37,129 nt of DNA from Actinomycetota bacterium. GTDB taxonomy: Bacteria > Actinomycetota > Actinomycetes > Propionibacteriales > Propionibacteriaceae. The first letter of the stretch is position 1; every line of letters starts with the position of its first letter. The stretch spans positions 1 through 37,129 of the forward strand of contig JAIUOT010000051.1 of the NCBI GenBank assembly GCA_020161015.1, read 5' to 3'. The notes under the pieces were generated by a model, which saw nothing but the letters and a program-made list of their open reading frames with translations, made no database searches and was not told where the DNA came from. Of this stretch, positions 1,032 through 30,122 are shown piece by piece. The position numbers and the translations under genes were made by a program.

Positions 1032-1166
1032 GTCACTCCCTCGTGCCGTAGGTGTCCGCCGGGGCACTCCACACCGAGGGCCGCGACGCGGCAACCGTCC
1101 TTCGCTGGCCGCCTCCCAGCAGGCTAAACCCTCCCTGTGACGCCGGGATGGCGCCGGTGGGGACAC

Positions 1167-2600: not shown

Positions 2601-2601
2601 C

Positions 2602-2952
2602 TCAGGCCTCGCAGACCACCACCGCGGACGCGATCCCGGCGTCGTGGGTGATCGAGAGGTGGATCGTCGCGATGCCGCGTTCCGCCACGAGGGCCGCGAC
2701 CGTGCCCGCGCAGGAGAAGAAGGGCTTCCCGGCCTCGTCCTTGCGCACCTCGACGTCGGTCCACACCAGCCCGGTCGGCGCGCCGAGCGCCTTCGCGAAG
2801 GCCTCCTTGGCCGCGAAACGGCCGGCCATCCGCTGCATGGACGTGTCGTGCTCGGCGGGGGTGAAGATCTTGTCGAGCAGCCCGGGCGTGCGCGCCACCG
2901 CCTCGCTGAAGCGCGAGACCTGGGTGACGTCGATGCCGATGCCGACGATCAT
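2602..2952 (-). CDS. acpS: Holo-[acyl-carrier-protein] synthase
   Basis: The 116-residue protein transfers 4'-phosphopantetheine from CoA to the acyl carrier protein serine. It begins MIVGIGIDVTQVSRF, with the Mg-binding Asp at residue 8. It continues with the second signature FAAKEAFAKALG around residues 47-57, with the metal-ligand Glu at 50, and ends in the typical LSITHD...A.A.V strand. The size equals the usual AcpS length. The gene lies 5 nt downstream of the glmS stop and 1 nt before nnr, so translation is probably coupled. A longer upstream reading in this frame would run out of frame through glmS and is not real. coaA, which makes the CoA substrate, is transcribed divergently from the same intergenic region. 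Confidence 0.95.
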   Translation of the reverse strand: MIVGIGIDVTQVSRFSEAVARTPGLLDKIFTPAEHDTSMQRMAGRFAAKEAFAKALGAPTGLVWTDVEVRKDEAGKPFFSCAGTVAALVAERGIATIHLSITHDAGIASAVVVCEA

Positions 2953-2957
2953 CGCCG

Positions 2958-4802
2958 CTACTCGACCGTGACGCTCTTGGCGAGGTTGCGGGGCTGGTCG
3001 ACGTCGTAGCCCTTCAGCGTGGCCAGCTCGCAGGCGAACATCTGCAGGGGGACGGTCGCCACGAGCGGCTGGAGCAGGGTCGACACCTTGGGCAGCCGGA
3101 ACAGCACGTCGGCGTACGGCTCGACCTCCGCGTCCCCCTCCTCGGCCAGCACCACGGTCAGCGCGCCGCGCGCCCGCACCTCCTGGATGTTGGAGACGAC
3201 CTTGTCGTGGAGCTGGTCGCGGCCCTGCGGCGGGACGACGATGAAGATCGGGATGCCGTCCTCGACCAGGGCGATCGGGCCGTGCTTCAGCTCGCCCGCG
3301 GGGAAGCCCTCGGCGTGCAGGTAGGCGATCTCCTTCAGCTTCAGCGCGCCCTCCAGCGCCACCGGGTAGCCGACGTGGCGGCCCAGGAACAGCACCGACT
3401 TCTGGTCGACGAACCGCTTCGCGAGCTCCTTGATCGGGTCGAGCTCGTCGAGCACCTTCTGGATCAGCGGCGGCGTGGCCGCCAGCTCGCTCATCACCGC
3501 GTGGATCTCGTCGTCGTACATGCTCCCCCGCACCTGGGCGAGGTAGAGGCCGAGCAGGTAGCAGGCCGCGACCTGGGTCAGGAAGCCCTTGGTGGACGCC
3601 ACGCCGATCTCGGGGCCGGCGTGGGTGTAGATCACGGCGTCCGACTCGCGCGGGATGGTCGCGCCGTTGGTGTTGCAGATCGCGATCACCTTCGCGCGCT
3701 GCTCGCGGGCGTGCCGGATCGCCATCAGGGTGTCGGCGGTCTCCCCCGACTGGCTCAGGGTGACCACGAGGGTCGAGCCGGTGATGATCGGGTCGCGGTA
3801 GCGGAACTCGCTGGCGATCTCGACCTCGCAGGCGATGCGGGTCCAGTGCTCGATGGCGTACTTGGCCACCAGACCGGCGTAGTACGCCGTCCCACACGCG
3901 ACGATGATGATCTTGTCGATCGACCGCAGCTCCGCCTCGGGGATGTGCAGCTCGTCCAGGCGCAGCGACCCGTCCGGGTTGAACCGGCCCAGCAGGGTGT
4001 CGGCGACCGCCCGCGGCTGCTCGTAGATCTCCTTGCGCATGAACCAGTCGTAGCCGGACTTCTCCGCGGCGGACAGGTCCCAGGTGACCTCGAACGGGTG
4101 GGTCGGCGCCGGGCGTCCGGCGAAGTCGGTGACCGTGACCGAGGTCGGGGTGACGTCCACCACCTGGTCCTGGCCGAGCTCGATGGCGTTGCGGGTGAAC
4201 TCGATGAACGCCGCCACGTCGGACGCGACGAAGTTCTCGCCCTCGCCGACACCGACCACCAGCGGGGAGTTGCGGCGCGCGGCCACGAGCCGGTCCGGCT
4301 CGGCCGCGTCCACCGCGACGAGGGTGAACGCACCCTCCAGGCGTCCGCAGACCGTGCGCATGGCGTCGGCGAGGTCGGCGCCCGCCTCCACCTCGCGGCC
4401 CAGCAGCTGGGCGGCGGTCTCCGTGTCGGTCTGGGAGGCGAAGGTGACGCCGTCCGCCTCGAGCTCGGTGCGCAGCACCGCGAAGTTCTCGATGATCCCG
4501 TTGTGGATCAGGGCCACCCGGCCGCCGGCGGACAGGTGCGGGTGCGCGTTGGCGTCCGTGGGACCGCCGTGGGTCGCCCACCGGGTGTGGCCGATGCCCA
4601 GGCCGGTGTCGGGGATGGGGTGGTCGTCCAGCTCGGCGTCCAGGTTCGTGATCTTGCCCGCCTTCTTGCGGTACTCGATCCGCCCGTCCGACACGACGGC
4701 GACGCCCGCCGAGTCGTACCCCCGGTACTCCATCCGCCGGAGGCCGGCGACCACGACATTGCGAGCGACACGAGGCCCCGTGTAGCCGATAATTCCGCAC
4801 AT
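2958..4802 (-). CDS. glmS: Glutamine--fructose-6-phosphate aminotransferase (isomerizing)
   Basis: The 614-residue cytosolic enzyme makes glucosamine-6-phosphate from fructose-6-phosphate and glutamine, the first step to UDP-GlcNAc and peptidoglycan. The start is fixed by biochemistry: MCGIIGYTG places the nucleophilic Cys at residue 2, as all class II glutamine amidotransferases require. An upstream in-frame start would add 28 residues and bury it. The amidotransferase domain includes GHTRWATHG. Two SIS domains follow, with LSQSGETADTL and the EAxxLKLKEIAYLHAEGFxAGELKHGP block. The C-terminus DVDQPRNLAKSVTVE is the family hallmark. There is no ribosome binding site. TACAGT lies 7 nt before the ATG, so the mRNA may be leaderless. 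glmM, the next pathway enzyme, is at 6097-7464. Confidence 0.97.
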   Translation of the reverse strand: MCGIIGYTGPRVARNVVVAGLRRMEYRGYDSAGVAVVSDGRIEYRKKAGKITNLDAELDDHPIPDTGLGIGHTRWATHGGPTDANAHPHLSAGGRVALIHNGIIENFAVLRTELEADGVTFASQTDTETAAQLLGREVEAGADLADAMRTVCGRLEGAFTLVAVDAAEPDRLVAARRNSPLVVGVGEGENFVASDVAAFIEFTRNAIELGQDQVVDVTPTSVTVTDFAGRPAPTHPFEVTWDLSAAEKSGYDWFMRKEIYEQPRAVADTLLGRFNPDGSLRLDELHIPEAELRSIDKIIIVACGTAYYAGLVAKYAIEHWTRIACEVEIASEFRYRDPIITGSTLVVTLSQSGETADTLMAIRHAREQRAKVIAICNTNGATIPRESDAVIYTHAGPEIGVASTKGFLTQVAACYLLGLYLAQVRGSMYDDEIHAVMSELAATPPLIQKVLDELDPIKELAKRFVDQKSVLFLGRHVGYPVALEGALKLKEIAYLHAEGFPAGELKHGPIALVEDGIPIFIVVPPQGRDQLHDKVVSNIQEVRARGALTVVLAEEGDAEVEPYADVLFRLPKVSTLLQPLVATVPLQMFACELATLKGYDVDQPRNLAKSVTVE

Positions 4803-4806
4803 AGCG

Positions 4807-4840
4807 GCCACTGTAGTGGCGCGTTCGGCACACTTGTGCC
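4807..4840. promoter_or_regulatory. Two tandem 14-bp palindromes between glmS and coaA; candidate operators, one over the glmS -10
   Basis: GCCACTGTAGTGGC (4807-4820) and GGCACACTTGTGCC (4827-4840) are each perfect 6-bp inverted repeats around a 2-nt centre. Their centres are 20 bp apart, close to two helical turns, so bound dimers would lie on nearly the same DNA face. On the minus strand the first palindrome contains TACAGT (4810-4815), a TANNNT -10 hexamer placed 7 nt before the glmS ATG. A protein bound there would block glmS and possibly coaA. The identity of any regulator is unknown. Confidence 0.5.
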
Positions 4841-4879
4841 CTAATCCCGGTGGCGGGCCCGGCACGAGGTGAGGTGGTA

Positions 4880-5863
4880 ATGGCACCAGCGATCAACGTC
4901 CACGACGAGGTGGGCGCGCCAGAGGACAACCCGTACGGGCCCTACCTCACGCTGGATCGGCGCCACTGGGCCGCGCTCGCGGCGTCCCGTCCGGCGAACC
5001 TCGGCGAGGCCACCCTCGAGCGCCTGCGCGGCATCGGCGACCCGACGGACGCCGCGGAGGTGCGTGAGGTCTACGCGCCGCTGACCGACCTGCTCAGCCT
5101 GTACATGGAGCGCACCGGCGCCCTGTTCTCCGCCAGTCACGAGTTCCTCGGCCTGTCCGGCCAGCGGACGCCGTTCGTGATCGGTGTGGCCGGATCGGTG
5201 GCGGTCGGGAAGTCCACCACGTCCCGGCTGCTGAAGGAGCTCATCTCGCGGTTCCCGTGGCACCCGCGCGTCGACCTGGTGACGACCGACGGCTTCCTGT
5301 ACCCGAACGCCCGGCTGGAGCGCGACGGGCTGCTGGAGCGCAAGGGCTTCCCGGAGTCCTACGACCGGCGCCGCCTGGTGCAGTTCGTGATGGACGTGAA
5401 GTCGGGCGCGCCGCAGGTGACCGCCCCGGTGTACTCCCACCTCGTCTACGACATCGTGCCGGACGAGGTGATCACGGTCTCCCAGCCCGACGTGCTCATC
5501 GTCGAGGGGCTGAACGTCCTCCAGCCGGCCCGCCGCCGCACCGACGGCACGACCGGACTGGCACTGAGCGACTTCTTCGACTTCTCGGTGTACGTGGACG
5601 CCGCGCACACCGACATCCGCAACTGGTACGTGTCGCGCTTCCTGCGGCTGCGGGAGACCGCGTTCCAGGACCCGGGCTCCTACTTCGTCCGCTACGGCCG
5701 GCTGTCGGAGGCCGAGGCCACCCAGGTGGCCCTCGACATCTGGGGCCGGATCAACGGGCCGAACCTGGAGCTGAACATCCGCCCGACGCGCGCACGGGCC
5801 ACCGCGATCCTGCGCAAGGGTCCCGACCACCAGGTCAGCTGGGTGCGGATCCGCAAGGTCTGA
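4880..5863 (+). CDS. coaA: Type I pantothenate kinase
   Basis: The 327-residue P-loop kinase phosphorylates pantothenate, the first committed step of CoA synthesis. The Walker A GSVAVGKST is at residues 105-113. The bacterial PanK-I core follows: FPWHPRVDLVTTDGFLYPN, then the RKGFPESYDRRRLVQF stretch and the PDVLIVEGLNVLQP strand. The ATG at 4880 is chosen because GAGGTGAGGTGG ends 3 nt upstream; an in-frame ATG 30 nt earlier would place this purine run inside the gene. The gene is divergent from glmS-acpS-nnr and convergent with glmM. No simple terminator follows; instead there is the repeat tract at 5881-6038. Confidence 0.96.
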   Translation: MAPAINVHDEVGAPEDNPYGPYLTLDRRHWAALAASRPANLGEATLERLRGIGDPTDAAEVREVYAPLTDLLSLYMERTGALFSASHEFLGLSGQRTPFVIGVAGSVAVGKSTTSRLLKELISRFPWHPRVDLVTTDGFLYPNARLERDGLLERKGFPESYDRRRLVQFVMDVKSGAPQVTAPVYSHLVYDIVPDEVITVSQPDVLIVEGLNVLQPARRRTDGTTGLALSDFFDFSVYVDAAHTDIRNWYVSRFLRLRETAFQDPGSYFVRYGRLSEAEATQVALDIWGRINGPNLELNIRPTRARATAILRKGPDHQVSWVRIRKV

Positions 5864-5880
5864 CGCCGACCCGCCGTCCC

Positions 5881-5981
5881 TTCGCCCCGGCTTCGCACAC
5901 TCCGTCCCGGCTTCGCCCACTTCGTCCCCGGATTCGACCACTTCGCCCCCGCTTCGACCACTTCGCCCCGGCTTCGCTACG
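5881..5981. repeat. Five imperfect 20-bp tandem repeats in the coaA/glmM intergenic region
   Basis: Five units, at 5881-5900, 5901-5920, 5921-5941, 5942-5961 and 5962-5981, follow the consensus TTCGCCCCGGCTTCGACCAC, with 1-6 differences each and one 21-bp unit. The period is not a multiple of three and the units interrupt any long reading frame, so this is not a coding repeat. It begins 17 bp after the coaA stop and leads directly into the inverted repeat that follows. Function is unknown. Confidence 0.85.
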
Positions 5982-6038
5982 TCCAGTTCGGGACGCTACG
6001 CGTATTCGCGCAGCATCGTCGATTACACGTAGCGAAGC
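5971..6038. repeat. Long-loop inverted repeat with nested hairpin between convergent coaA and glmM
   Basis: GCTTCGCTACGT (5971-5982) and ACGTAGCGAAGC (6027-6038) are perfect 12-bp inverted arms separated by 44 nt. Inside is a second imperfect hairpin, GCTACGCG-TATT-CGCGCAGC (5995-6014, one mismatch). The left arm overlaps the last 20-bp tandem repeat. There is no T-run on either side, so it is not a textbook intrinsic terminator, though it sits where a bidirectional one would be expected. The remaining 6039-6096 holds nothing recognisable. Confidence 0.65.
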
Positions 6039-6096
6039 GCAGGGCCGGGCGCGCGGACGGACCCCGGCGAGGTCGGGTGAGGGACGGGCGCGGCGC

Positions 6097-7464
6097 TCAG
6101 CGCGCGGGCTCGAGGCTCAGGCGGTCGCGGACCACCTCTGCCAGGCGCTGGGCGACCTCCATGGCACGCTCTGCGGTGTCGGCCTCGACCATCACGCGCA
6201 CCAGCGGTTCGGTGCCGGAGGGACGCAGCAGCACGCGGCCGTTGCGGCCCAGGGCCCTCGACTCGGCGGACACGGCGGCGTTCACCACCGGGTCGATGCC
6301 GGCTCGCGCCTTGTTCACGTTCGGCACGTTCACCAGCACCTGGGGCAGCCGGGTCACGACCGCGGCGAGGTCGCGCAGGGTGCGCCGCGTCCGCGCCATG
6401 CGGGCGGCGAGGTGGAGGGCGGTGAGCACGCCGTCGCCGGTGGTGGCGAACTCGCTCATGATCACGTGGCCGGACTGCTCGCCGCCGAGGGTGAAGCCGT
6501 TGGCGTTCATCGCCTCCAGCACGTACCGGTCGCCGACCTTGGTCTGGTCGACGTGGACACCGGCGTCGCGCATGGCGTTGAGGAAGCCGAGGTTGCTCAT
6601 CACGGTCGCCACCACGGTATCGCTGTGCAGCGTGCCCTGCTCGCGCATGGCGAGGGCGAGGATGGCCAGGATCTGGTCGCCGTCGACGACCTCGCCGGTG
6701 TGGTCGACGGCCAGGCAGCGGTCGGCGTCCCCGTCGAGCGCGATGCCGAGGTCCGCGCCGTGCTCGAGCACGGCCGCCTGGAGCGAGGCCATGTGGGTGG
6801 AGCCGCAGTTGTCGTTGATGTTCAGCCCGTCGGGCTCGGCGTGCAGCGGGACGACGGTCGCCCCCTGGGCGTCGAAGGCGGCCAGTGCGGTGAGGCAGGC
6901 CGCGCCGTTGGCGCAGTCGACGACCACAGTGAGTCCCTCGAGGCTGGCGTCGGCGCCGAGGCTGGCCACGAGGTGCGCGACGTAGGCCTCGATGGCGCCG
7001 GGGTCGTCGATCACGCGGCCGACGCCGGCTCCGGTGGGACGCAGCCACACCTCGTCCATGCGCTGCTCGATGGCGTCCTCGATCGTGTCGTCGAGCTTGA
7101 CGCCGCCACGGGCGAAGAACTTGATGCCGTTGTCGGGCATCGGGTTGTGGCTGGCCGACAGCATCACGCCGAGGTCGGCGTCGAGGTGTCCCACGAGGTG
7201 GGCGACGCCCGGGGTCGGGATGACGCCCAGCCGCACCACGTTCACCCCGGCGGACGCGAGGCCCGCGACCACGGCGGCCTCGAGGAATTCCCCACTGGCA
7301 CGGGTGTCGCGCCCGACGAGTGCCACGGGACGGCGGGACGCACCGAACGCGCCCGCCTCGCCCAGCACGTGGGCGGCCGCGACCGACAGCTCGAGAGCGA
7401 TCTCGGCGGTCAGCTCGAGGTTCGCGGTGCCGCGAACCCCGTCGGTTCCGAAAAGTCGAGCCAC
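6097..7464 (-). CDS. glmM: Phosphoglucosamine mutase
   Basis: The 455-residue enzyme interconverts glucosamine-6-phosphate and glucosamine-1-phosphate on the way to UDP-GlcNAc. The N-terminus [10 protein letters not shown] is diagnostic. The phospho-serine loop [15 protein letters not shown] places the catalytic Ser at residue 105. The metal loop DGDADRC follows in mid-protein, and the sugar loop GGEQSGHV and phosphate-binding [15 protein letters not shown] close the set. The start is a GTG at 7464, 13 nt after the rpsI stop, with only a weak GGGTCGGG upstream, so translation is probably coupled to rpsI. It is the last gene of rplM-rpsI-glmM, a conserved actinobacterial order linking ribosome and cell-wall synthesis. 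Confidence 0.96.
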
Positions 7465-7477
7465 GGCCCGACCCGGA

Positions 7478-7993
7478 TCAGCGCTTGCTGTACTGAGGAG
7501 CCTTGCGGGCCTTCTTGAGGCCGGCCTTCTTGCGCTCCTTGACGCGGGCGTCGCGGGTCAGCAGGCCGGCCTTCTTCAGGGCCGGACGGCTCGCCTCCGC
7601 GTCCACGGCGTTCAGCGCGCGGGCGATGCCCAGGCGCAGCGCACCGGCCTGGCCGGTCACGCCGCCGCCGACGATCGTCGCGATGACGTCGTAGGAGCCG
7701 ACGACCGCAGCGGTCACGAAGGGCTCGTTGACGGTCTGCTGGTGCAGCTTGTTCGGGAAGTAGTCCTCGAGGGTGCGACCGTTGATCGAGAACTGGCCGG
7801 TGCCCGGCTTGATCCGGACGCGGGCGATGGCCTCCTTGCGGCGGCCGGTGGCGCCGGCAGGGGCGACGACGGCGGGACGGCCGCCCGGCAGCGGGGCGCT
7901 CGGCTGGGCCTCGGCGCGGTAGGCGATCTCCCGATCGTCCTCAACGAAGGGGACGACCTCGTCGGCCACGGTCTCTTCGACGGTCTCGGTCAC
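7478..7993 (-). CDS. rpsI: 30S ribosomal protein S9
   Basis: The 171-residue protein has an acidic N-terminal extension of about 40 residues ([19 protein letters not shown]) typical of actinobacterial S9. The conserved S9 core runs from [13 protein letters not shown] to the C-terminal [12 protein letters not shown], whose basic tail reaches the ribosomal P site. The Gly-rich segment [19 protein letters not shown] is the family signature. The GTG start at 7993 is preferred because GAGGAAG lies 4 nt upstream and the longer in-frame reading would overlap rplM. It follows rplM by 14 nt in the same operon. Confidence 0.95.
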
Positions 7994-18463: not shown

Positions 18464-18829
18464 ATGACTGAAGAGAACACCCCCAAGGAAGGCGCGGAAG
18501 GCTTCCTTGGCGGCCTGCTGGGCAAGGCCAAGGAGTTCGGCGAGAAGGCCAAGGACGTCGCCGGTGACGCCTTCGAGGCCGTGAAGGACTTCGCGGAGGA
18601 CCTGCCCGAGAACGCCCAGAAGCTTGCCGCCGACGCGTCCGCGGCGGCGAAGGACTTCGCAGAGGACCTGCCCGAGAACGCCCAGAAGCTCGCCGCCGGC
18701 GCCCAGAAGCTGGCCGGCGACGCTGTCGAGAAGGCCAAGGACCTCATCGACGGCGACGCCGCTGCGGCCGAGCCGCCGGCCCAGGCGCCCGCGGAGACCC
18801 CGGCCGAACCGCCGGCTCCGACCGCCTGA
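18464..18829 (+). CDS. Small helical protein with seven 11-residue amphipathic repeats (LEA/apolipoprotein-like)
   Basis: The 121-residue protein has no signal peptide or membrane segment. From residue 21 to 97 it reads as seven consecutive 11-mers, most ending in KD or QK: KAKEFGEKAKD, VAGDAFEAVKD, FAEDLPENAQK, LAADASAAAKD, FAEDLPENAQK, LAAGAQKLAGD, AVEKAKDLIDG. A 22-residue unit (FAEDLPENAQK plus the next block) is duplicated almost identically. The 11-mer period and A/K/D/E composition resemble group 3 LEA proteins and exchangeable apolipoproteins, which form long amphipathic helices. The tail is Pro/Ala-rich. AGAAGGG precedes the ATG, with TAGGCT (18421-18426) as a likely -10. A strong terminator follows, so it is a monocistron. 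Desiccation, membrane or lipid-droplet association are guesses. Confidence 0.8.
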   Translation: MTEENTPKEGAEGFLGGLLGKAKEFGEKAKDVAGDAFEAVKDFAEDLPENAQKLAADASAAAKDFAEDLPENAQKLAAGAQKLAGDAVEKAKDLIDGDAAAAEPPAQAPAETPAEPPAPTA

Positions 18830-18843
18830 CCCTGCCGTCCACG

Positions 18844-18882
18844 CAACGGGGTGCCCGATTCGGGCACCCCGTTGTACTTTTT
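18844..18882 (+). terminator. Strong Rho-independent terminator
   Basis: CAACGGGGTGCCCG (18844-18857) pairs perfectly with CGGGCACCCCGTTG (18861-18874) over an ATT loop and is followed by TACTTTTT. It ends the 11-mer-repeat gene and isolates the riboswitch operon from upstream transcription. Confidence 0.92.
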
Positions 18883-18919
18883 GGTTCACCCCTTGTCACG
18901 GCCACCGTCGCCACGGCCC

Positions 18920-19075
18920 ATGGGTTAGCCTGAGGCCACCTGAACCTTTGCAGGGGAACCCGGTGCAAGTCCGGGACTGACCCGCAACCGTGACGACGGC
19001 AGCTGCCGTCCAAGTCGGAATGCCTGCACAAGTTCTGGCTCATTCACACCCGTCGTGGCATACGGGCGAGCCGGA
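18920..19075 (+). ncRNA. Cobalamin riboswitch upstream of the ECF/transcobalamin-like operon
   Basis: The conserved core GGGGAACCCGGTGCAAGTCCGG...ACTGACCCGCAACCGTGA (18953-18992) matches the cobalamin aptamer, followed by the variable P6-type hairpin GACGGCAGCTGCCGTC and the closing AAGTCGGAATGCCTGC (19012-19026). TTTGCAGG before the core can pair with the CCTGCACAA after it. Downstream, GGCTC...CCCGT and ACGGG..GAGCC (19037-19072) form a two-part hairpin with loop CGTGGCA, placed like the P13 element of the expression platform. The ribosome binding site AAAGGA follows at 19116-19121. A TTAGCCT box near 18925 could be the -10. The aptamer is confident; whether control is translational is inferred. 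Confidence 0.92.
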
Positions 19076-19126
19076 CGCGCGCAGTTGGCCCCGGATCACC
19101 TGGAGGCCCCGCGCGAAAGGACTTCC

Positions 19127-20725
19127 GTGTTCAACTCATTCCGACGATCTCTGGCTGCCGGGTCTGCGGTCGTGATCGCACTGCTCGGCCTGCCCGCCGT
19201 CCCGACCGCCGACGCCGCGCCCGCCGCCGCCGACGCCACCCGGGCCGCCAACTACCTGGTGCGCAACCTGCCGAAGACCGCCGACGGCGTCGGTGCCTCG
19301 GCCACGGTCGCGCTCGGCCTGGCCACCGCCAACGACTGCACCTACGCGCCCGCGCTGCGCACGCTGGTGAGCCAGATGGAGAAGGGCGCGAAGGGCTACC
19401 TGTACCCGGGCAAGAAGCTCAACCCGGCCCGCGCGGCCAACCTGGCGATCGCCGTGGAGGCGCTGGGCCTCAACCCGCGCAAGTTCGCCGGCTACAACCT
19501 CGTCTCACTGGTCACCAAGGGCCTGCCGGCCGACGGCCGGATCGGCTCGTCGGACTCCGCGTTCAGCCAGAGCCTGGGCATCATCGCCCTCGACCGGGCC
19601 GACGCGACCATCCCGGTGACGCTGCTCACCAAGCTGCTCAGCCTCCAGGACGACACCGGCGCCTTCGGCTACGACTTCAACGGCTTCCAGGCCGACCCCG
19701 ACACCACCGGAATGGGGATCCTCGCGCTGCACGCCATCGGCCAGCTCGACCCGCAGGTGGATGCGGCGAAGGACTGGGCGGACGCCAACCAGCTCGAGGA
19801 CGGCTACTGGGCGAGCTACTCCCCCGTCGACTCCACCGGCCTGCTCGGCTCCGCGCTGGCCGCGGAGGGCGAGGACGTCTCCTCGGCCAAGACGTGGCTG
19901 GGCGGCGTGCAGAACAGTGACGGCGGATTCCCCAACTCGCTGGACGAGGGCACCGCATCGGACCTGATGGCCACCGTCGACGCGCTCTACCTGATCAGCG
20001 GCAAGAGCCTGCTCGACGCCTCGATCAACCTGGGCAAGTGCCCCAAGAACGCACCGAAGCTGCCGGCGGCCACCACCTCCTGCACCGGCGTGTGGGTGGT
20101 CGTCGATCGCGGGAACGGCCAGGAGACCGTGCGCTGCGCCACCAAGTACAGCACCGGCATCGCGGCGCTGAAGAGCGCTGGCTTCACGGTGGGCACCGAC
20201 GCGAGCAACTTCGTGAACCGGATCCAGGGGTTCCCGCTGGTTGTCGACACGACCTTCTCCAAGTACTGGGGCTACTGGCACGCAACGCCGAAGGCAGACG
20301 GCACCTGGGACACCTGGGTCGAGTACGGGGTTGGCGCTGCTGACGCGACCCCGAAGCAGGGCGATGTCGAGGGCTGGATCTATGGCCCCTGGCTCGGCGT
20401 GGGCGGCACCCCGAACCTCCTGACCCCGCCCGACGGCTACGCCGCGTCCCCGGTGCCGACGATCGAGAACCAGACCACCCCGGCCAGCACCACGCCGAAG
20501 GTGGGCGAGACCCTCGGAGCCGTCACCGGCACCTGGGATCCCGTCCCCGCCTTCAGCTACCGCTGGTACCGCAACGGCAGCTCGATCTCCGGGGCAACCA
20601 AGGCGACCTACAAGCTGACGAAGTACGACGTCGGCCGGGTGATCACGGTGAAGGTGACCGCGAAGCTCAGCGGGCACCAGACGGTGTCCCGCACGTCGCT
20701 TCCGACCGCGAAGGTCACCAAGTGA
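19127..20725 (+). CDS. Secreted transcobalamin-like protein: alpha/alpha barrel + DUF4430 domain + Ig-like tail
   Basis: The 532-residue protein is exported: RRSLAAGSAVVIALLGLPAVPTADA gives a signal peptide, with cleavage near residue 30. Residues about 35-310 form helical repeats of the prenyltransferase/squalene-cyclase type alpha/alpha barrel (LQDDTGAFGYDFNGF; VQNSDGGFPNSLDEGTASDLMATVDAL), with no cyclase DxDD motif. Residues about 318-425 are a DUF4430 (transcobalamin C-terminal-like) domain: CTGVWVVVD, a second Cys at CATKYS, ALKSAGF, and KYWGYWHA...W. Residues about 445-532 are an Ig-like repeat (VGETLGAVTGTWDP...SYRWYRNG...VTVKVTA). Barrel plus beta domain is the architecture of animal transcobalamin and intrinsic factor. 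The GTG at 19127 has AAAGGA 5 nt upstream, behind the cobalamin riboswitch. Corrinoid binding is strongly suggested but not proven. Confidence 0.85.
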   Translation: MFNSFRRSLAAGSAVVIALLGLPAVPTADAAPAAADATRAANYLVRNLPKTADGVGASATVALGLATANDCTYAPALRTLVSQMEKGAKGYLYPGKKLNPARAANLAIAVEALGLNPRKFAGYNLVSLVTKGLPADGRIGSSDSAFSQSLGIIALDRADATIPVTLLTKLLSLQDDTGAFGYDFNGFQADPDTTGMGILALHAIGQLDPQVDAAKDWADANQLEDGYWASYSPVDSTGLLGSALAAEGEDVSSAKTWLGGVQNSDGGFPNSLDEGTASDLMATVDALYLISGKSLLDASINLGKCPKNAPKLPAATTSCTGVWVVVDRGNGQETVRCATKYSTGIAALKSAGFTVGTDASNFVNRIQGFPLVVDTTFSKYWGYWHATPKADGTWDTWVEYGVGAADATPKQGDVEGWIYGPWLGVGGTPNLLTPPDGYAASPVPTIENQTTPASTTPKVGETLGAVTGTWDPVPAFSYRWYRNGSSISGATKATYKLTKYDVGRVITVKVTAKLSGHQTVSRTSLPTAKVTK

Positions 20726-21543
20726 GGCGTCTCCTCCTCGCGGCTGCGCTGACGGTTCCCCTCGCCGTCGGCGCGGCCGCGGCCGCGCCCGTCCAGGCCG
20801 CGCCGCTGCCGCAGGCCTCCGCCTGCAGCGGGGTCTGGGTGGTCGTCGACTACGGGTCGCTGGGCGGCACGAGCACGAAGTGCGCGACCAGCTACAGCAC
20901 GGGTGCGGCAGCCCTGAAGAGCGCCGGTTTCAGCATCGTGCTCGACGGCGGCTTCCTGCTGAAGATCAACGGCAAGCCGGGCAGCCCCGACATCAACAAG
21001 GCGTACTGGTCGTACTGGCAGGCGACGCGGTCCGAGGACGGCACCTACTCCAACTGGAAGTACTCCACCCTCGGGGCGAGCGCGTCCCACCCGACCAAGG
21101 GCAACGCGGAGGGCTGGCACTACCAGTCGCTGGACGGCGGGAACGTACCCCCGGGTGCCGCGCCGCCGGCCGAGGACACGTCCACCCCGTCCCCGACGCC
21201 GTCGCCGACGAAGACCACGACAAAGCCGAGTCCGAAGCCGACGAAGTCGGCGACCAGGAGCCCGAGCGCCAGCGCGACGGCCACGGCGACGAAGAGCGCG
21301 TCCGCCTCGGCCACCGCGAGCAGCACGCCGAGCGCTACCCCGACGCCGACCCCGACGCCGGCGGCGACGACCGCCACCCCGCTCGGGGCGGACGAGGCGA
21401 CGCCGATCGCCACCGAGGAGACCAGTCCCCCGCAGGACCCCGGCAGCGGCAGCCCGCTGGGCGCGCTCGTCGCCGGCGGGGTCGTCGTGGCCGGTGCCGC
21501 CGGCCTGGGCGGCTGGTGGCTGTGGAGAGGACGGAAGCCCTGA
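20722..21543 (+). CDS. Membrane-anchored DUF4430 (transcobalamin C-like) protein
   Basis: The 273-residue protein has a signal peptide (RRLLLAAALTVPLAVGAAAAAPVQA) and one DUF4430 domain at about residues 35-140. A Ser/Thr/Pro-rich stalk of about 80 residues follows, and then a C-terminal anchor GALVAGGVVVAGAAGLGGWWLW ending RGRKP. It would therefore stand outside the cell on a stalk. The domain is a clear paralogue of that in the upstream gene: CSGVWVVVD/CTGVWVVVD, KCATSYSTG/RCATKYSTG, ALKSAGF in both, and AYWSYWQA/KYWGYWHA. Both copies keep the same two cysteines, a likely disulfide. The GTG start overlaps the preceding stop by 4 nt (GTGA). A role as membrane receptor passing ligand to the ECF S component is inferred. 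Confidence 0.82.
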   Translation: MRRLLLAAALTVPLAVGAAAAAPVQAAPLPQASACSGVWVVVDYGSLGGTSTKCATSYSTGAAALKSAGFSIVLDGGFLLKINGKPGSPDINKAYWSYWQATRSEDGTYSNWKYSTLGASASHPTKGNAEGWHYQSLDGGNVPPGAAPPAEDTSTPSPTPSPTKTTTKPSPKPTKSATRSPSASATATATKSASASATASSTPSATPTPTPTPAATTATPLGADEATPIATEETSPPQDPGSGSPLGALVAGGVVVAGAAGLGGWWLWRGRKP

Positions 21544-22709
21544 ACCAGGTGCACCCGTGGGCGTGGTGGTGCTGGGCGATCGGTATCGGGATCGCCGTGA
21601 GTGGCACCACCAACCCGCTGCTGCTCGCGCTCGTCGCGACCGCGATGATCGCGGTCGTGATGCTGCGCCGCAGCGCCGCACCCTGGGCACGGTCGGTCCG
21701 CGCCTACCTGCTGCTGTCGCTGTTCGTGATCGGCATGCGGGTGTTCTTCCAGATCGTGCTGGGCGGCGGGCGGGGCGAGACCGTCCTGTTCGCCCTTCCC
21801 GAGATCCCGCTGCCCGCCTGGGCGGCGGGCATCCAGCTCGGTGGCACCGTCACCGCAGAGGCCCTGACCGCGACGCTGTACGACGCATTGCGGCTCGCGG
21901 TCATGCTGCTGTGCATCGGTGCCGCCAACGCCCTGGCCAACCCGCGCCAGGCGTTGCGGTCGGTCCCGGCCGCGCTGTACGAGGCATCGGTCGCCGTGGT
22001 GATCGCGCTGAGTGTGGCGCCGCAGCTGATCGAGAGCGTCCAGCGGGTACGCAGGGCGCGCCGCCTGCGCGGCGCGTCGTCGACCAGCCTGAAGGCGCTG
22101 GCCACGGTCGCCATGCCCGTGCTCGCGGACGCCATCGAACGCTCGATGTCGCTCGCGGCCGGCATGGAGGCGCGCGGCTTCGCCCGGACGCGTGGCCTGC
22201 CCACCCGGGGCACGCTGCCGCTCATGCTGGTCTCCTCGATGGCCGCCACCATCGGGGTCTTCCTGCTGCTCAGCACCTCCTGGTGGCAGCCAGCGCTGGG
22301 CCTGCTGGTGGCCGGCGTCACCGTGGCCGGCTTCGGCCTGCGGGCGGCCGGACGGCGGCTGCGGGTGACCACCTACCGTCCGCAGCCGTGGCGCGGGCGC
22401 GACACCCTCGTCGCCGCGACCGGCGTGCTGGCCGCCGTGCTCGTGCTCGGCCTCGGCTGGCTCGACCCCACCACGCTCAGCCCTGCGCTGGCCGCGATCC
22501 TCGACCCGGCGGCGCTGGCACCCACCACCGACCCGCTCGCCTGGCCGCAGCTCACCCTGCCGATGTTCGTGGTGATCGGCCTGGTGCTGGCTCCCGTCCC
22601 GCTCACCCGGGCGCGGAAGGTCGCCCAGACGGCCTCGACCCGCAACGACACCCGCGTCCGCTCGCTGCGGCCGCAGGTCGAGCGCCCGAAGGTGCCGGCA
22701 TGGCGGTGA
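21540..22709 (+). CDS. ECF transporter T component (CbiQ/EcfT family)
   Basis: The protein of about 389 residues is the membrane-embedded scaffold that couples ATPases to the substrate-binding S subunit. It begins LNQVHPWAWWCWAIG and has the two diagnostic Arg motifs on the coupling helices: ARRLRG (about 173-178) and MEARGF (209-214), which dock on the ATPases. Membrane segments lie at both ends; the C-terminal extra segments make it longer than the usual 250-270 residues. The start is uncertain. A CTG at 21540 overlaps the preceding stop (CTGA) and has GGAGAGG 9 nt upstream; GTGs at 21522 and 21549 are in frame but have poorer spacing. The gene overlaps the next by 10 nt. Confidence 0.88.
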   Translation: MNQVHPWAWWCWAIGIGIAVSGTTNPLLLALVATAMIAVVMLRRSAAPWARSVRAYLLLSLFVIGMRVFFQIVLGGGRGETVLFALPEIPLPAWAAGIQLGGTVTAEALTATLYDALRLAVMLLCIGAANALANPRQALRSVPAALYEASVAVVIALSVAPQLIESVQRVRRARRLRGASSTSLKALATVAMPVLADAIERSMSLAAGMEARGFARTRGLPTRGTLPLMLVSSMAATIGVFLLLSTSWWQPALGLLVAGVTVAGFGLRAAGRRLRVTTYRPQPWRGRDTLVAATGVLAAVLVLGLGWLDPTTLSPALAAILDPAALAPTTDPLAWPQLTLPMFVVIGLVLAPVPLTRARKVAQTASTRNDTRVRSLRPQVERPKVPAWR

Positions 22710-24292
22710 TCACCTTCGACCGGGTCTCCGTGACCTACCCGGAGGCCGACCGCCCCACGCTCGACCAGGTCTCGTTCGCCCTGCCCGAGGGCGACCTGTG
22801 CCTGGTGGTCGGCTCCACCGGCACCGGCAAGTCCACCCTGCTCGGCGCCATCAACGGCCTGGTGCCGCACTTCACCGGAGGCCTGCTGTCCGGCCGGGTG
22901 CTCGTGGACGGCCGCGACACCGCGCACCACCGTCCCCGCGACCTGGCCGACGTGGTCGGCTACGTGGGCCAGGACCCGCTGCGCGGGTTCGTCACCGACA
23001 CCGTCGAGGACGAGGTCGCCTACGGCATGGAACAGCTCGGCATCGACCCGGTCGCCATGCGCAAGCGCGTCGAGGAGACCCTCGACCTGGTGGGCATCGC
23101 CGACCTGCGGCGGCGTCCGCTCGTCGAGCTGTCGGGCGGCCAGCAGCAGCGGGTCGCGATCGCCGCCGTCCTCGCCGCCCAGCCCCGGGTGCTGGTGCTC
23201 GACGAGCCCACCTCGGCCCTCGACCCCACCGCTGCGCAGGACGTGCTGTCGGCCATCGCCACGCTCGTCCACGAGGTCGGGCTCACCGTCGTGCTGGCCG
23301 AGCACCGCCTCGAGCGGGTGATGCAGGCCGCCGACTCGATGATCTGGCTGCCCGGGGACGGCAGCCTCGTGCACGGCAGCCCGCGCGAGGTGCTCGCGCG
23401 CGCCACCGTCACTCCCCCGCTGGCCGAGCTGGCCCGCATCGTCGGGTGGGACGAGGTGCCCCTCAGCGTCCGCGAGGCCCGGCGGCGGGCGCTGGCCGAG
23501 GACCTCGCGCCGACCGCCCCCCGGCGCGCCCCCGCCAACGGACGGCCCGTCGCGCTCGCCGCGCGCGGCGTCGAGGTGCGCTTCGGCGACGTGGTGGCCG
23601 TCGACGGCGTCGACGTCGCCCTGCCGCAGGGCTCGGTGACCGCGCTGCTGGGACGCAACGGCGCCGGGAAGTCGTCGCTGCTGTGGGCCCTCCAGGGCGC
23701 GCTCACCTGCGCCGGGGAGATCACCGCCGGCGGCCAGGACCCCCGCCGCCTGTCCGCCGCGGAGGCAAGGCGGCTGGTGACACTCGTGCCGCAGACGGCC
23801 GCCGACCTGCTGTACCTGCCCACCGTGGCCGCGGAGTGTGCCCAGGCGGACGCCGAGAGCGACGCCGCCCCCGGAACGACGGCGGCGCTGCTCACCGCAC
23901 TCGGGGTGGACGTGCCCGACGAGCGCGACCCGCGGGACCTGTCGGAGGGCCAGCGGCTGGCCCTCGTGCTGGCCGTGCAGCTGGCGGCGCGGCCGCCCGT
24001 CCTGCTGCTCGACGAGCCGACGCGCGGCCTGGACTACCGCGCCAAGGCCGAGCTGCACCGGATCGTCGACCGCCTCGCCGCCACCGGGGTCGCGGTCGTG
24101 ATCAGCACCCACGACGTCGAGTTCGCCGCCCTCGCCAGCACCCGGACGCTACTGATGGCCGACGGCGAGATCATCGCCGAGGGCACCACCGCCGACCTGC
24201 TCACCTCCTCCCCCGCCTACGCCCCCCAGATGGCGAAGGTGTTCGCGCCCCTCCCTGTGCTCACGCCGGCCGACGTCCGCGGGGGGTTGTGA
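22700..24292 (+). CDS. ECF transporter fused double ATPase (EcfA-EcfA')
   Basis: The 530-residue protein has two ABC ATPase domains in one chain. Domain 1 has Walker A GSTGTGKST (38-46), signature LSGGQQQR (144-151), Walker B VLVLDEP (165-171) and the EcfA-type FVTDTVEDEVAYGMEQLGI segment. Domain 2 has Walker A GRNGAGKSS (about 318-326), a diverged signature LSEGQ and Walker B VLLLDEPTRGLD with a His switch STHD. ECF modules often use two different ATPases; here they are fused. It starts 10 nt inside the T component gene and its stop overlaps the S component start (TGATG). It powers import through the T/S complex. Confidence 0.93.
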   Translation: MAVITFDRVSVTYPEADRPTLDQVSFALPEGDLCLVVGSTGTGKSTLLGAINGLVPHFTGGLLSGRVLVDGRDTAHHRPRDLADVVGYVGQDPLRGFVTDTVEDEVAYGMEQLGIDPVAMRKRVEETLDLVGIADLRRRPLVELSGGQQQRVAIAAVLAAQPRVLVLDEPTSALDPTAAQDVLSAIATLVHEVGLTVVLAEHRLERVMQAADSMIWLPGDGSLVHGSPREVLARATVTPPLAELARIVGWDEVPLSVREARRRALAEDLAPTAPRRAPANGRPVALAARGVEVRFGDVVAVDGVDVALPQGSVTALLGRNGAGKSSLLWALQGALTCAGEITAGGQDPRRLSAAEARRLVTLVPQTAADLLYLPTVAAECAQADAESDAAPGTTAALLTALGVDVPDERDPRDLSEGQRLALVLAVQLAARPPVLLLDEPTRGLDYRAKAELHRIVDRLAATGVAVVISTHDVEFAALASTRTLLMADGEIIAEGTTADLLTSSPAYAPQMAKVFAPLPVLTPADVRGGL

Positions 24293-25074
24293 TGGACGGC
24301 CGTGCGCGGGTGCCCGTCGCCGTGGTGGCCGCGGCCCTGATCGGGCTGGTCGCCTTCAGCTGGCCACTGTTCCTGCGTCCGGAGTCGGGCATGTCGGCCA
24401 CGCAGGCGCCGATCATGTTCGCGCTCGTGCTGCCCACGGTGCTCGCGGTCGTGCTGTCCGAGATCGCCGGGGGCCGCATGGACGCCCGCTCGCTGGCGAT
24501 GCTCGGGGTGCTGGCCGCCGTCGGCACGATCCTGCGTCCGCTCAGCGCGGGGACGGCGGGGTTCGAGCTGGTCTTCTTCCTGATGATCCTCGCCGGGCGG
24601 GTGTTCGGGGCCGGCTTCGGCTTCGCGCTCGGCGCGATCACCCTGTTCACCTCCGCGCTGATCACGTCCGGGGTCGGGCCCTGGCTGCCGTACCAGATGC
24701 TGGCGGCGGGCATGGTCGGACTGTTCGCCGGGCTCCTGCCGCGGGCGGGCGGACGGGCCGAGATCCTGCTGCTGGCCGCCTACGGCATGGTGTCCGCCTT
24801 CGCCTACGGCTGGGTGATGGACTTCTCGTTCTGGCCGTTCGGGATCGGCGAGGACACCCAGATCTCGTTCGACCCGGCGCTCGGCCCGCTGGAGAACCTG
24901 CACCGGTTCGTGCTGTACAACATCGCCACCTCGATGGGGTGGAACCTGGGCCGCGCCCTGACCAACGCCGTGGTGATCGCCCTGCTCGGCGTCCCCCTGC
25001 TGCGACTGCTGCGCCGCAGCGCCCGCCAGGCCCGGTTCGCGCCCGCGAGTTCGGCCCAACCTCTGGCGGAATAG
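24292..25074 (+). CDS. ECF transporter S component, probably corrinoid-specific
   Basis: The 260-residue protein is a bundle of about six membrane helices with the look of an ECF substrate-binding subunit: a small, very hydrophobic core and Gly/Ala-rich first helices for T contact (VPVAVVAAALIGLVAFSW). Characteristic loops include GTAGFELVFFLMILAGRVFGAGFGFALGA, ITSGVGPWLPYQMLAAGMVGLFAGLLP and YGWVMDFSFWPF. The ATG overlaps the ATPase stop by 1 nt. Specificity cannot be read from the sequence alone. The upstream riboswitch and transcobalamin-like proteins point to cobalamin or a precursor such as cobinamide. It ends the operon; no clear terminator precedes sodA. Confidence 0.85.
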   Translation: MDGRARVPVAVVAAALIGLVAFSWPLFLRPESGMSATQAPIMFALVLPTVLAVVLSEIAGGRMDARSLAMLGVLAAVGTILRPLSAGTAGFELVFFLMILAGRVFGAGFGFALGAITLFTSALITSGVGPWLPYQMLAAGMVGLFAGLLPRAGGRAEILLLAAYGMVSAFAYGWVMDFSFWPFGIGEDTQISFDPALGPLENLHRFVLYNIATSMGWNLGRALTNAVVIALLGVPLLRLLRRSARQARFAPASSAQPLAE

Positions 25075-27499: not shown

Positions 27500-28459
27500 A
27501 TGGACGCCGCCAGCGTGTGGGACGGGCCCGCGGAGACGGGCTTCGATGCGATCGGGACGCGCAACAGCATCCTGGCGACCGTGCCGACGAGCCTCGCCGA
27601 GGCCGTCCACATCGCGCGGGAGCACCTCGCGGACCTCGACCGGGCGGTGTCGCGCTTCCGTGACGACTCCGAGGTGAGCCGGCTCGCCCGCCTGGCCGCG
27701 ACCGCGGACGCCTGGTGCTTCGGCTCGCCCCTGCTCGTCGACCACCTGGACGCCGCGCGCCACGCGGCGCGGCTCAGCGAAGGCCTCGTCGACTTCACCG
27801 TCGGTTCGGCGGTCATCGCCTCCGGCTACGACGCCGACCTGGCCCTGGTCCGGGCGCGGACCACCTGGGTCCCGTCGGGGCCCGCCCCTCGCGTGCCGGG
27901 GTGGCGGCGGGTCGAGCGGGCGGGGGCACGCCGGATCGCCGTCCCCGCCGGCACCGTCCTCGACTTCGGCGCGACCGCGAAGGCGCACGCCGCGGACACC
28001 ATCGCCCGGCTCCTCGCCAGCCGCCTCGACGGCGGCTTCCTGGTGAACCTCGGCGGCGACATCGCCACCGCGGGCCCGGCCCCCGAGGGCGGGTGGCGCG
28101 TCGGCGTCGAGGCCGCGGACGGGACCGTCCGCCAGGTCGTGGCGGTCGCCGGGCAGGGCGTGGCGACCTCGTCCACCCGGCTGCGCCGCTGGGCCACCCG
28201 CACGGGCGAGGCGCACCACATCGTCGACCCGCGCACCGGGCGCACGGCCGCGGCCACCTGGACCCAGGTGACCTGCATCGCCGCCACCGCCCTGGAGGCC
28301 AACACCGGCTCCACCGCGGCGGTCGTCCTCGGCGAGGACGCCCCCGACTGGCTGTCCGCCCGCCGGGTGGCCGCCCGCCTCGACCGGCCCGACGGGGACG
28401 TGGTGTTCACGCCCGGCTGGCCGGTCCCCGTCCCCGACACCGAAAGGGCCCCCGCATGA
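27500..28459 (+). CDS. apbE: FAD:protein FMN transferase
   Basis: The 319-residue ApbE-family protein attaches FMN from FAD to a Thr/Ser of exported flavoproteins. Motifs: DLDRAVSRFRDDSEVSRL near the N-terminus, the DFGATAKAHAAD FAD-site stretch, FLVNLGGDIATAG, and ATSSTRLRRW...HHIVDPRTGR in the C-terminal half, which contributes the metal site. No lipobox or clear signal peptide is visible at the ATG (27500), so it may act in the cytoplasm or be exported unusually. It overlaps the next gene by 4 nt (ATGA). The expected FMN-accepting partner is not recognisable in the window. Confidence 0.9.
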   Translation: MDAASVWDGPAETGFDAIGTRNSILATVPTSLAEAVHIAREHLADLDRAVSRFRDDSEVSRLARLAATADAWCFGSPLLVDHLDAARHAARLSEGLVDFTVGSAVIASGYDADLALVRARTTWVPSGPAPRVPGWRRVERAGARRIAVPAGTVLDFGATAKAHAADTIARLLASRLDGGFLVNLGGDIATAGPAPEGGWRVGVEAADGTVRQVVAVAGQGVATSSTRLRRWATRTGEAHHIVDPRTGRTAAATWTQVTCIAATALEANTGSTAAVVLGEDAPDWLSARRVAARLDRPDGDVVFTPGWPVPVPDTERAPA

Positions 28460-29022
28460 GCGGACAGGCATTCTGGTTCCTCTCCCGCGCCACCGGCGTG
28501 GTGAGCGTGGTCCTGCTCACCGTGGTGGTGTGCCTCGGCATGGTCACCGCGGGCCGGAGGCGCCCGCACGGCGAGAGCGCCACCGTCGTGATGGGCGTGC
28601 ACCGCTGGCTGTCGCTGGGCATGCTGGTCTTCCTCGCGGTGCACATCGTCACCGCGATCGTCGACGGCTACGTGCCGATCGGCTGGCTGGCCGTCGTGCT
28701 GCCGTTCTCCTCGCCCTACCAGACCCTGCTGGTGGGCCTGGGCACCGTGGCCGTCGACCTGCTGGTCGTGCTGATGGTCACCAGCTACCTGCGCCACCGC
28801 ATCCCGGAGCGACGCTGGCGGATCATCCACTGGACGTCCTACGCGATGTGGCTGGCCGCGCTCGCCCACGGCTTCGCGATGGGCACGAGCGACCAGCCGG
28901 GGCTGCGGCTGACCACCATCGCCTGCGGCACCGTCGGCGGGCTGTTCGTGGCCTGGCGGCTGGTGGCGAGCCACGCCGACAGGGAACGGCGCCAGGAGAT
29001 CAACGCACAGGAGTGGACATGA
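28456..29022 (+). CDS. Ferric-reductase-like transmembrane cytochrome b
   Basis: The 188-residue membrane protein has about five helices and two histidine pairs spaced for two b hemes: His49/His63 (GVHRWLSLGMLVFLAVHIV) and His125/His138 (RIIHWTSYAMWLAALAHG). This is the ferric reductase-like transmembrane domain seen in MsrQ, YedZ and NOX relatives, without a flavin/NADH domain of its own. It would pass electrons across the membrane, taking them from the neighbouring NuoF-like protein and ferredoxin or from quinol. It shares 4-nt overlaps with both flanking genes, so subunits are probably made together. The electron acceptor outside the membrane is unknown. Confidence 0.87.
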   Translation: MSGQAFWFLSRATGVVSVVLLTVVVCLGMVTAGRRRPHGESATVVMGVHRWLSLGMLVFLAVHIVTAIVDGYVPIGWLAVVLPFSSPYQTLLVGLGTVAVDLLVVLMVTSYLRHRIPERRWRIIHWTSYAMWLAALAHGFAMGTSDQPGLRLTTIACGTVGGLFVAWRLVASHADRERRQEINAQEWT

Positions 29023-30122
29023 CCGACCTTCTCACCATGCTCGACGAGGCCGGCCTCACCGGACGCGGCGGGGCGGCGTTCAGCACCGCGACCAAGGTGC
29101 GGGCGGCGCGGGAGCACCGCGCGGAACTGATCGTGAACGTGTGCGACGGCGAGGTCGGCGCGGCCAAGGACGGCTGGATCGTCGAGCACCACCTGCACGA
29201 GCTCATCGAGGGCGCCGGCCTGGTGGCCGGGGACGGGACGCGGCGCGCCGTCCGGTACGCCGCGCACCGGGGCTCGCGGACGGCGTCCCTGCTCGCCGCC
29301 GCGGGGCTGGGCGTGCTGGAGGTCCCCCACCGGTACGTGTCGTCGGAGGAGACCGCGGTCATCTCCGCCGCCCACGGCGGACTCGCCCGGCCGATGACCA
29401 AGCGGGCGCCGTTCGTGTTCGGCGGCCGCGACAGCCAGGGTCGCCGGATCGCGCCGACGGTCGTGCTCAACGCGGAGACCGTCTGGCGGGTGAGCCAGGT
29501 CGCACGGTTCGGCCCGCGCTGGTTCCGCTCGTTCGGCACCACAGACGAGCCGGGACCGCGCCTGGTGGCGGTGGGCGGCCACGTCCCGCGCCCCGGCGTG
29601 TACGAGGCGGCGGCGGGAGTCGCCCTCTCCGACCTGCTCTCCCTCGCCGGAGGCCTGCCACCCGACGCCCGCCACGTCGGTGTCGGCGGGCTCGGCGGGG
29701 TGGTGCTGACCGCCTCGGCCGCGCTCTCCACGATCTGGGACACCCCGGGGATGAAGCGCCACGGCGGAGCTCTCGGTCCGGGCATCGTGACCGTGTGGGA
29801 CCCCTACGCCTGCCCGATCGACGTGGCCGGTGAGCTGATCGCCTACGGCGCCGGCGAGTCCGCCGGGCAGTGCGGGCCGTGCATGTTCGGGCTGCCCGCC
29901 CTGTCCCAGGCCTGGGGGGAGCTGGGACGCCGGCCCGGCGTGCCGGCCCAGGAGCGCCTCCAGCAGCGGCTCTCGCTGCTCGAGCGGCGCGGGGCCTGCC
30001 ACCACCCGGACGGCGTGGCGCGGTTCGCCGCGTCCGCGCTGGGGACGCTGGCCGCGGAGTTCGCCGCGCACGCCGACCACCGGTGCCAGAAGGAGAGGAG
30101 ACCCCATGCCCAGTTCGCCTGA
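29019..30122 (+). CDS. NuoF-like (NADH dehydrogenase 51-kDa family) flavin/iron-sulfur protein
   Basis: The 367-residue protein has the FMN-binding LTGRGGAAFSTATKV (residues 13-26), a version of the NADH/FMN loop (NVCDGEVGAAKD) and SSEETAVISAAHGG. An SLBB-like strand follows (AVGGHVPRPGVYEAAAGVALSDLLSLAGG), and last the iron-sulfur region. In NuoF the cluster uses CGxCxxC plus a distant Cys. Here the stretch reads ESAGQCGPC (Cys285, Cys288) with a later Cys327, so the first ligand is Ala. It lacks the standard length of NuoF and is not part of a nuo operon. It probably oxidises NAD(P)H and feeds the adjacent ferredoxin. It overlaps the next gene by 17 nt. Confidence 0.85.
   Translation: MTDLLTMLDEAGLTGRGGAAFSTATKVRAAREHRAELIVNVCDGEVGAAKDGWIVEHHLHELIEGAGLVAGDGTRRAVRYAAHRGSRTASLLAAAGLGVLEVPHRYVSSEETAVISAAHGGLARPMTKRAPFVFGGRDSQGRRIAPTVVLNAETVWRVSQVARFGPRWFRSFGTTDEPGPRLVAVGGHVPRPGVYEAAAGVALSDLLSLAGGLPPDARHVGVGGLGGVVLTASAALSTIWDTPGMKRHGGALGPGIVTVWDPYACPIDVAGELIAYGAGESAGQCGPCMFGLPALSQAWGELGRRPGVPAQERLQQRLSLLERRGACHHPDGVARFAASALGTLAAEFAAHADHRCQKERRPHAQFA

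Follow-up and report, generated by a model that had tools for sequence, protein, structure and literature searches.

The window, which is the whole 37,129-nucleotide stretch analyzed here (contig JAIUOT010000051.1 of assembly GCA_020161015.1, Propionibacteriaceae; contig C35 of a 3.67 Mb host genome), carries an operon in which a cobalamin riboswitch is followed by five plus-strand genes in the order A, B, EcfT, fused EcfA-A' and EcfS, the last three encoding predicted parts of an energy-coupling factor (ECF) transporter. The riboswitch aptamer (18905-19045, +) and a leader (19046-19126, +) precede gene A (19127-20725, +), gene B (20722-21543, +), the CbiQ-like EcfT (about 21522-22709, +, with a GTG start at 21522 or 21549 as read from the sequence), the fused ATPase EcfA-A' (22700-24292, +) and the substrate-binding membrane component EcfS, hereafter S (24292-25074, +). 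Successive genes overlap by 4, about 22, 10 and 1 bases. The operon is flanked on its 5' side by an unrelated open reading frame (ORF) of 121 amino acids and then a terminator (18464-18875), and on its 3' side by a superoxide dismutase gene. An initial annotation had described this locus as a cobalamin aptamer followed by five overlapping genes, and the Rfam match, the ORFs and the Pfam domains bear this out. The closest named records at the toroid and SLBB region of gene A are metagenome-assembled genomes of Propionicimonas sp. and of an Actinobacteria member (both 76% identical), followed by Micropruina and other Propionibacteriaceae, in a listing that may omit records very close to the window itself.

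Positions 18905-19045 match the cobalamin riboswitch family RF00174 (model positions 1-189) at 35.4 bits, above the gathering score of 31.5, and no other match in the window reaches the Rfam gathering threshold. The riboswitch core GGGAACCCGGTGCAAGTCCGGG occurs once when up to two mismatches are allowed, with 0.01 occurrences expected. When the window is aligned with five relatives, of which two extend over only the 3' part, the aptamer is seen to be conserved, and so is a block of the leader that ends in CGCGCGAAAGGA at the presumed ribosome-binding site. A terminator scan of 18700-19300 found only one, at 18843-18875 on the 5' side of the aptamer, and none between the aptamer and the GTG at 19127. 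Because of this lack of a terminator after the aptamer and of the conserved block at the end of the leader, the riboswitch likely acts on the start of translation. Folding gave no unusually stable leader structure (local z -0.28).

Gene A starts with GTG and encodes 532 amino acids comprising a toroid (residues about 31-300), a beta-grasp domain (about 309-432) and an immunoglobulin (Ig)-like domain (about 440-532). Its product looks exported, judging from a signal peptide that, like that of B, was recognized by eye. An AlphaFold2 (AF2) model of residues 31-435, computed from a 33-row alignment of the window with relatives, reached a predicted local distance difference test (pLDDT) value of 91.7 and a predicted template-modeling score (pTM) of 0.77. 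When this model was compared with the PDB by Foldseek, ranks 1-15 were all taken by transcobalamin, haptocorrin or intrinsic factor (E 4.5e-12 to 3.2e-7), and the 405 modeled residues were aligned to these animal B12 carriers over 427-453 columns, which exceeds either domain alone. As modeled, an alpha/alpha toroid is joined to a beta-grasp domain, the combination that marks the transcobalamin-like SLBB clade; as to the beta-hairpin insert that the clade has after its beta-grasp helix, the model, read by itself, shows helix 314-320 and then short strands at 325-327 and 333-336. The structure prediction proposed with the initial annotation, as run for A, thus agrees with the transcobalamin-like architecture that had been suggested. 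The barrel and the transcobalamin-C-like domain stand, but the label DUF4430 given to both A and B does not: Pfam DUF4430 has no match in either protein at E<=1 and matches 1 of 33 beta-grasp members (at 0.0037), and the likeness becomes visible in the predicted structure. We treat the DUF4430 profile as a detection aid rather than as what defines the transcobalamin-like clade. The NCBIfam family SCO2321_fam matches gene A at 8.2e-10 with 38.1 of 300 bits, far under its cut-off, and the SCO2322 family reaches 13.6 of 85 bits.

The C-terminal Ig-like domain, which the annotation had not mentioned, is possibly a surface-binding module that replaces an anchor. Further copies of this domain (window 20444-20722) were seen in related genomes, often within large open frames. 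A tblastn search of plasmids with gene A returned 26 records from Streptomyces and Embleya, none spanning 80% of A, and among the eight matches listed several cover just the Ig-like part.

One of these plasmid homologues (H1) is named 'prenyltransferase/squalene oxidase repeat-containing protein', and the profile of the whole alignment of the window with relatives matches squalene-hopene cyclases of the PDB at 2.6e-26, so that the toroid protein might be taken for an enzyme resembling a terpene cyclase or prenyltransferase, with an indirect link to B12. Class II terpene cyclases carry a DxDD motif, whereas the window has DPDTT at this position. Moreover, Pfam SQHop_cyclase_N gives 14.2 of the 26.2 bits required, A looks exported and many of its relatives are wall- or membrane-anchored, and the structural ranking places the B12 carriers first, with terpene cyclases and other toroid proteins beginning at rank 16. 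On the grounds of export, motif, fold ranking and the sub-cut-off Pfam match we rejected the enzyme interpretation, which we regard as extremely improbable.

Gene B encodes 273 amino acids with a signal peptide, an SLBB beta-grasp domain (residues about 28-145) and a Ser/Thr/Pro linker, followed by a C-terminal transmembrane helix with a basic tail; the ends were read from the sequence, and the family assignment draws on the alignment and on 42% identity to residues 304-459 of gene A. Elsewhere in the window, a Complex1_51K/Nqo1-like protein encoded after an ApbE-family gene (27500-30122) has a Pfam SLBB domain that belongs to the other clade of the same superfamily. In the loci fetched from other genomes (L025-L064 and L094-L167), 69 of 91 toroid-bearing proteins have no SLBB match on the same chain. 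Anchors were tallied by simple pattern and hydropathy rules, with relatives not down-weighted and with the chance that a weak SLBB match escapes. By these rules an L[PA]xTG motif lies near the end of 26/91 toroid-bearing proteins. The 69 toroid-only proteins divide into 18 with L[PA]xTG near the C-terminus, 21 with a transmembrane helix and basic tail and 30 with neither, and the 22 proteins with both domains into 8, 3 and 11, respectively. Among the SLBB-only proteins, 77 of 96 have a transmembrane helix and basic tail at their C-terminus. The two halves of a transcobalamin are therefore often found on separate proteins, one sometimes wall-anchored and the other usually membrane-anchored, which suggests a split carrier or a relay.

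The remaining genes encode an ECF importer. EcfT matches Pfam CbiQ (1.2e-8) and the fused EcfA-A' contains two ABC_tran domains (Pfam, NCBIfam), so that a CbiQ-type T component is combined with two ATP-binding cassette domains as expected of an ECF transporter. S matches Pfam ECF_trnsprt (1.9e-6) with 28.4 bits, just below the cut-off of 30.7, and in a Foldseek search with its AF2 model (pLDDT 76.9, 11-row alignment) ranks 1-10 were all ECF S components (probability 0.93-1.00), in agreement with an S-component fold.

Many relatives, if not every fetched stretch, show the order of toroid and SLBB genes, T, A-A' and S again, which supports the proposed coupling to a dedicated ECF importer. Gene A has matches in 100 of 147 genomes of the family (the window's genome included, many through the Ig-like domain only), and 40 of these, other than the window's, were examined. 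A same-strand RF00174 match precedes the matched toroid/SLBB stretch by 69-719 bases in 32 of the 40, with 29 of the 32 exceeding the gathering score; of the eight misses, three fall at the end of a contig. For the scan of the collection an early alignment of 17 toroids was too diverse, and eight closer ones found 14 loci. Of 396 genomes sampled from the phylum, 85 were found with the S profile, again including the window's. From 72 of them 74 loci were fetched (E<=3e-35; 12 weaker genomes were omitted), and 24 loci with less than 8 kb of upstream sequence were dropped. Upstream of S on the same strand, the remaining 50 show an SLBB match in 44, a toroid in 34 and a riboswitch in 36, with 0.14 upstream riboswitches expected by chance among them. 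By eye count, 17 of the 36 riboswitches beat the gathering score, the rest lying below it at E<=1e-3 for the whole genome. Over all 74 loci the numbers are 55, 43 and 42, respectively, and 18 loci have none of the three. Of 33 toroid or beta-grasp members, 18 match the NCBIfam family SCO2321 and 16 match SCO2322 (E<=0.01). The operon is real, conserved and widespread, and the co-occurrence survey that the annotation had called for associates the riboswitch with the module in both samples.

The loci differ in detail. In L107 the 11 kb preceding a single S hold two toroid/SLBB pairs and three riboswitch matches on its strand. L144 and L165 have their toroid and SLBB matches on the strand opposite S, and neither L112 (one of two S loci in G253) nor L161 has a toroid, SLBB or riboswitch match. 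L134, L135, L136 and L137 carry S, with SLBB in the first three and no toroid match, in genomes without a riboswitch match; here a different regulation or a different substrate is conceivable.

Genes downstream of S point in the same direction as the riboswitch. Up to two same-strand ORFs per locus, within 1.5 kb after S and chosen by codon-position GC, gave 56 ORFs, and 25 of the 33 Pfam families in their tally were listed. The matches listed include two btuR genes and single cobU, cobT and cobS genes, spread over four loci; these are genes of corrinoid salvage and activation, and their place beside S is suggestive of a corrinoid substrate. In L166 and L167 btuR lies 24-32 bases 3' of S, in L131 cobS follows at about 1.2 kb, and L160 has the order toroid, SLBB, T, A, S, cobU, an unscanned ORF and cobT. 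The L160 genes form one same-strand run (238-7940) in a small genome (1.6 Mb) without CbiH above the cut-off; no riboswitch was found there, on a contig that begins only 237 bases before the toroid ORF. We consider the L160 module a clean candidate for cobinamide salvage. Had the module usually stood under unrelated regulators or beside genes of other vitamins, this would speak against corrinoid uptake; the riboswitches and the 56 downstream ORFs, which cover this question in part, do not show such a pattern.

The cobU, cobT and cobS genes of two relatives serve the lower ligand and nucleotide loop, and might indicate that the substrate is not the complete cofactor but a corrinoid-related small molecule (alpha-ribazole, dimethylbenzimidazole or specifically cobinamide), which would also account for the control by B12. 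The resemblance of S to S components for small vitamins fits this alternative, as does a host that probably makes corrin rings. However, carriers of complete corrinoids are built in this way from a toroid and a beta-grasp domain, the btuR gene beside S in two loci acts on corrinoids, and two carrier domains would hardly be necessary for a small base. We therefore think such a substrate unlikely.

That the host probably makes corrin rings is judged from the genes of contig C28 (L065, 1-20000), which carries cobA, cbiC, a cobJ/cbiH domain with a CbiG-like part, cbiE, cobM/cbiF, cobI/cbiL, a cbiA-like gene, btuR/cobO and a CbiN-CbiQ cobalt importer, together with two further cobalamin riboswitches, of which one lies on the cbiL side of the cluster and the other upstream of cbiN-cbiQ. 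As this contig illustrates, cobalt importers can sit under such riboswitches, and Pfam calls the T component CbiQ 'cobalt transport'; the operon could accordingly be read as an ECF cobalt importer built from CbiQ/CbiO-like parts. The host, however, already possesses the separate CbiN-CbiQ set, S matches ECF_trnsprt and no cobalt-importer family, and it is hard to see what toroid and SLBB proteins would do with a metal ion. For these three reasons cobalt import was rejected, and we give it hardly any credence. A fourth riboswitch match of the host, below the threshold with 30.4 bits (L066 8647-8787; G000:C40:70646-70786), lies near a Cob_adeno_trans/HbpS-like gene, with an aldehyde dehydrogenase frame on the other strand.

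Among genomes with the module, CbiH/CobJ was found above the cut-off in 21 of 40 from the family and 17 of 72 from the phylum sample, and not in the other 19 and 55, some of whose assemblies are incomplete. The module is therefore present in likely producers as well as in likely auxotrophs; producers would keep it to regain lost corrinoid or to save on synthesis.

Taken together, the riboswitch and the association with cob and btuR genes support the corrinoid uptake proposed in the initial annotation, and we consider it highly probable that the operon is an uptake system for corrinoids, the vitamin B12 family. Several observations weigh against this conclusion. The predicted domains of A fit transcobalamin individually, but the Foldseek root-mean-square deviation of 17-18 Å and template-modeling scores of 0.40-0.50 suggest that in the model their mutual placement is unlike that of ligand-bound carriers. 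No sequence search (Pfam, NCBIfam, phmmer, PDB profiles) ties the beta-grasp domain to transcobalamin; the PDB matches of its alignment profile are antibody chains (E 0.03-1.4), and the 41 PDB matches of the profile of the whole alignment, in which squalene-hopene cyclase is nearest, include no B12 carrier. For S, the Foldseek E-values are weak (0.04-0.55), the fold matches include S components for folate, pantothenate and riboflavin, with BtuM only at rank 29 and CbrT absent from the best 50, and a PDB profile search found no relative at E<=1; its substrate is thus assigned because of context and not of structure. In the genomes, an upstream riboswitch was not found in 14 of 50 S loci, and a cobalamin riboswitch match is missing altogether from 12 of 72 phylum genomes, including G154, G371, G414 and G489, which are rated 100% complete. 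Of the riboswitch-free genomes, G154, G371 and G489 have SLBB without a toroid match, G414 has neither and G168 (L150) has both. Finally, cob and btuR genes are few among the downstream matches listed (5 of 56 ORFs, in four loci), and a host with a corrin-synthesis cluster has no obvious need for uptake.

If the operon does take up corrinoids, low intracellular adenosylcobalamin, the presumed ligand, would let the riboswitch permit its expression. Exported A would then bind a corrinoid between toroid and beta-grasp domain, by analogy to transcobalamin, membrane-tethered B might receive or present it at the membrane, and S would import it with energy provided by EcfT and the fused EcfA-A'. The corrinoid itself may be cobalamin, cobinamide or both. 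For the relay order from A through B to S we see evenly balanced chances. More tentatively, the actinobacterial proteins might constitute a split, exchangeable transcobalamin, in which a toroid half, secreted or bound to the wall, and a beta-grasp half tethered to the membrane would enclose the corrinoid and pass it through the wall to S; in the genus of the window the halves are also found fused, and the second SLBB protein would be the swap partner for hand-over. The heme relay of Gram-positive bacteria offers a comparison for such a hand-over, and to our knowledge little is known about the passage of B12 through the thick Gram-positive wall to an ECF importer. If the split-carrier interpretation is true, the animal carriers would trace back to a bacterial pair of this kind whose halves had become fused. 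The module is common in the phylum and lends itself to testing whether bacteria have a counterpart, and possibly a forerunner, of transcobalamin; it would also give the SCO2321 and SCO2322 families a function.

The sections of a 2019 survey considered here call the identification of B12 transporters in gut genomes an open problem (PMC6593275). By title and abstract, no description of the actinobacterial operon as a whole was found in the open literature, which does not settle priority, and a search on SCO2321-SCO2325 returned nothing related. These Streptomyces families are matched by part of the toroid or beta-grasp members, and the family names give no function. The novelty claimed in the initial annotation was nevertheless overstated. 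Burroughs et al. (2007; PMC1796856), in the parts considered here, described bacterial toroid and SLBB proteins that occur together with CbiO, CbiQ and another SLBB paralogue, and suggested that they scavenge B12 or its precursors. Those operons share with ours the exported toroid and SLBB protein, the second paralogue, the CbiO-like ATPase and the CbiQ-like protein. They were described, however, for low-GC Gram-positives, planctomycetes and less often euryarchaea, in hosts said usually to lack key enzymes of B12 synthesis, whereas the window operon is actinobacterial, lies in a genome with corrin synthesis, is led by a riboswitch, has a fused A-A' and falls below Pfam DUF4430 detection; those parts mention neither a riboswitch nor an S component. 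In a 2017 paper on acI genomes (PMC5301498), actinobacterial ECF modules led by cobalamin/adenosylcobalamin riboswitches were proposed as cobalamin transporters; the shared feature is the actinobacterial ECF module under this control, but the portions considered mention no toroid or SLBB capture proteins, and the acI genomes lack B12 synthesis. Import of cobalamin and cobinamide has been proven experimentally for ECF-CbrT of Lactobacillus delbrueckii, which, according to the sections considered, uses a shared ECF module (PMC5997447); the window operon would belong to the same class of ECF-type corrinoid importers by prediction, although its S is not recognisably related to CbrT by profile or among the best 50 folds. 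With animal transcobalamin, haptocorrin and intrinsic factor, the predicted A shares the order of toroid and then beta-grasp domain, at 15-18% identity and with a different relative placement of the domains in the model. A scavenging operon of this kind was thus predicted earlier in other phyla, and the actinobacterial operon is a variant of the predicted kind.

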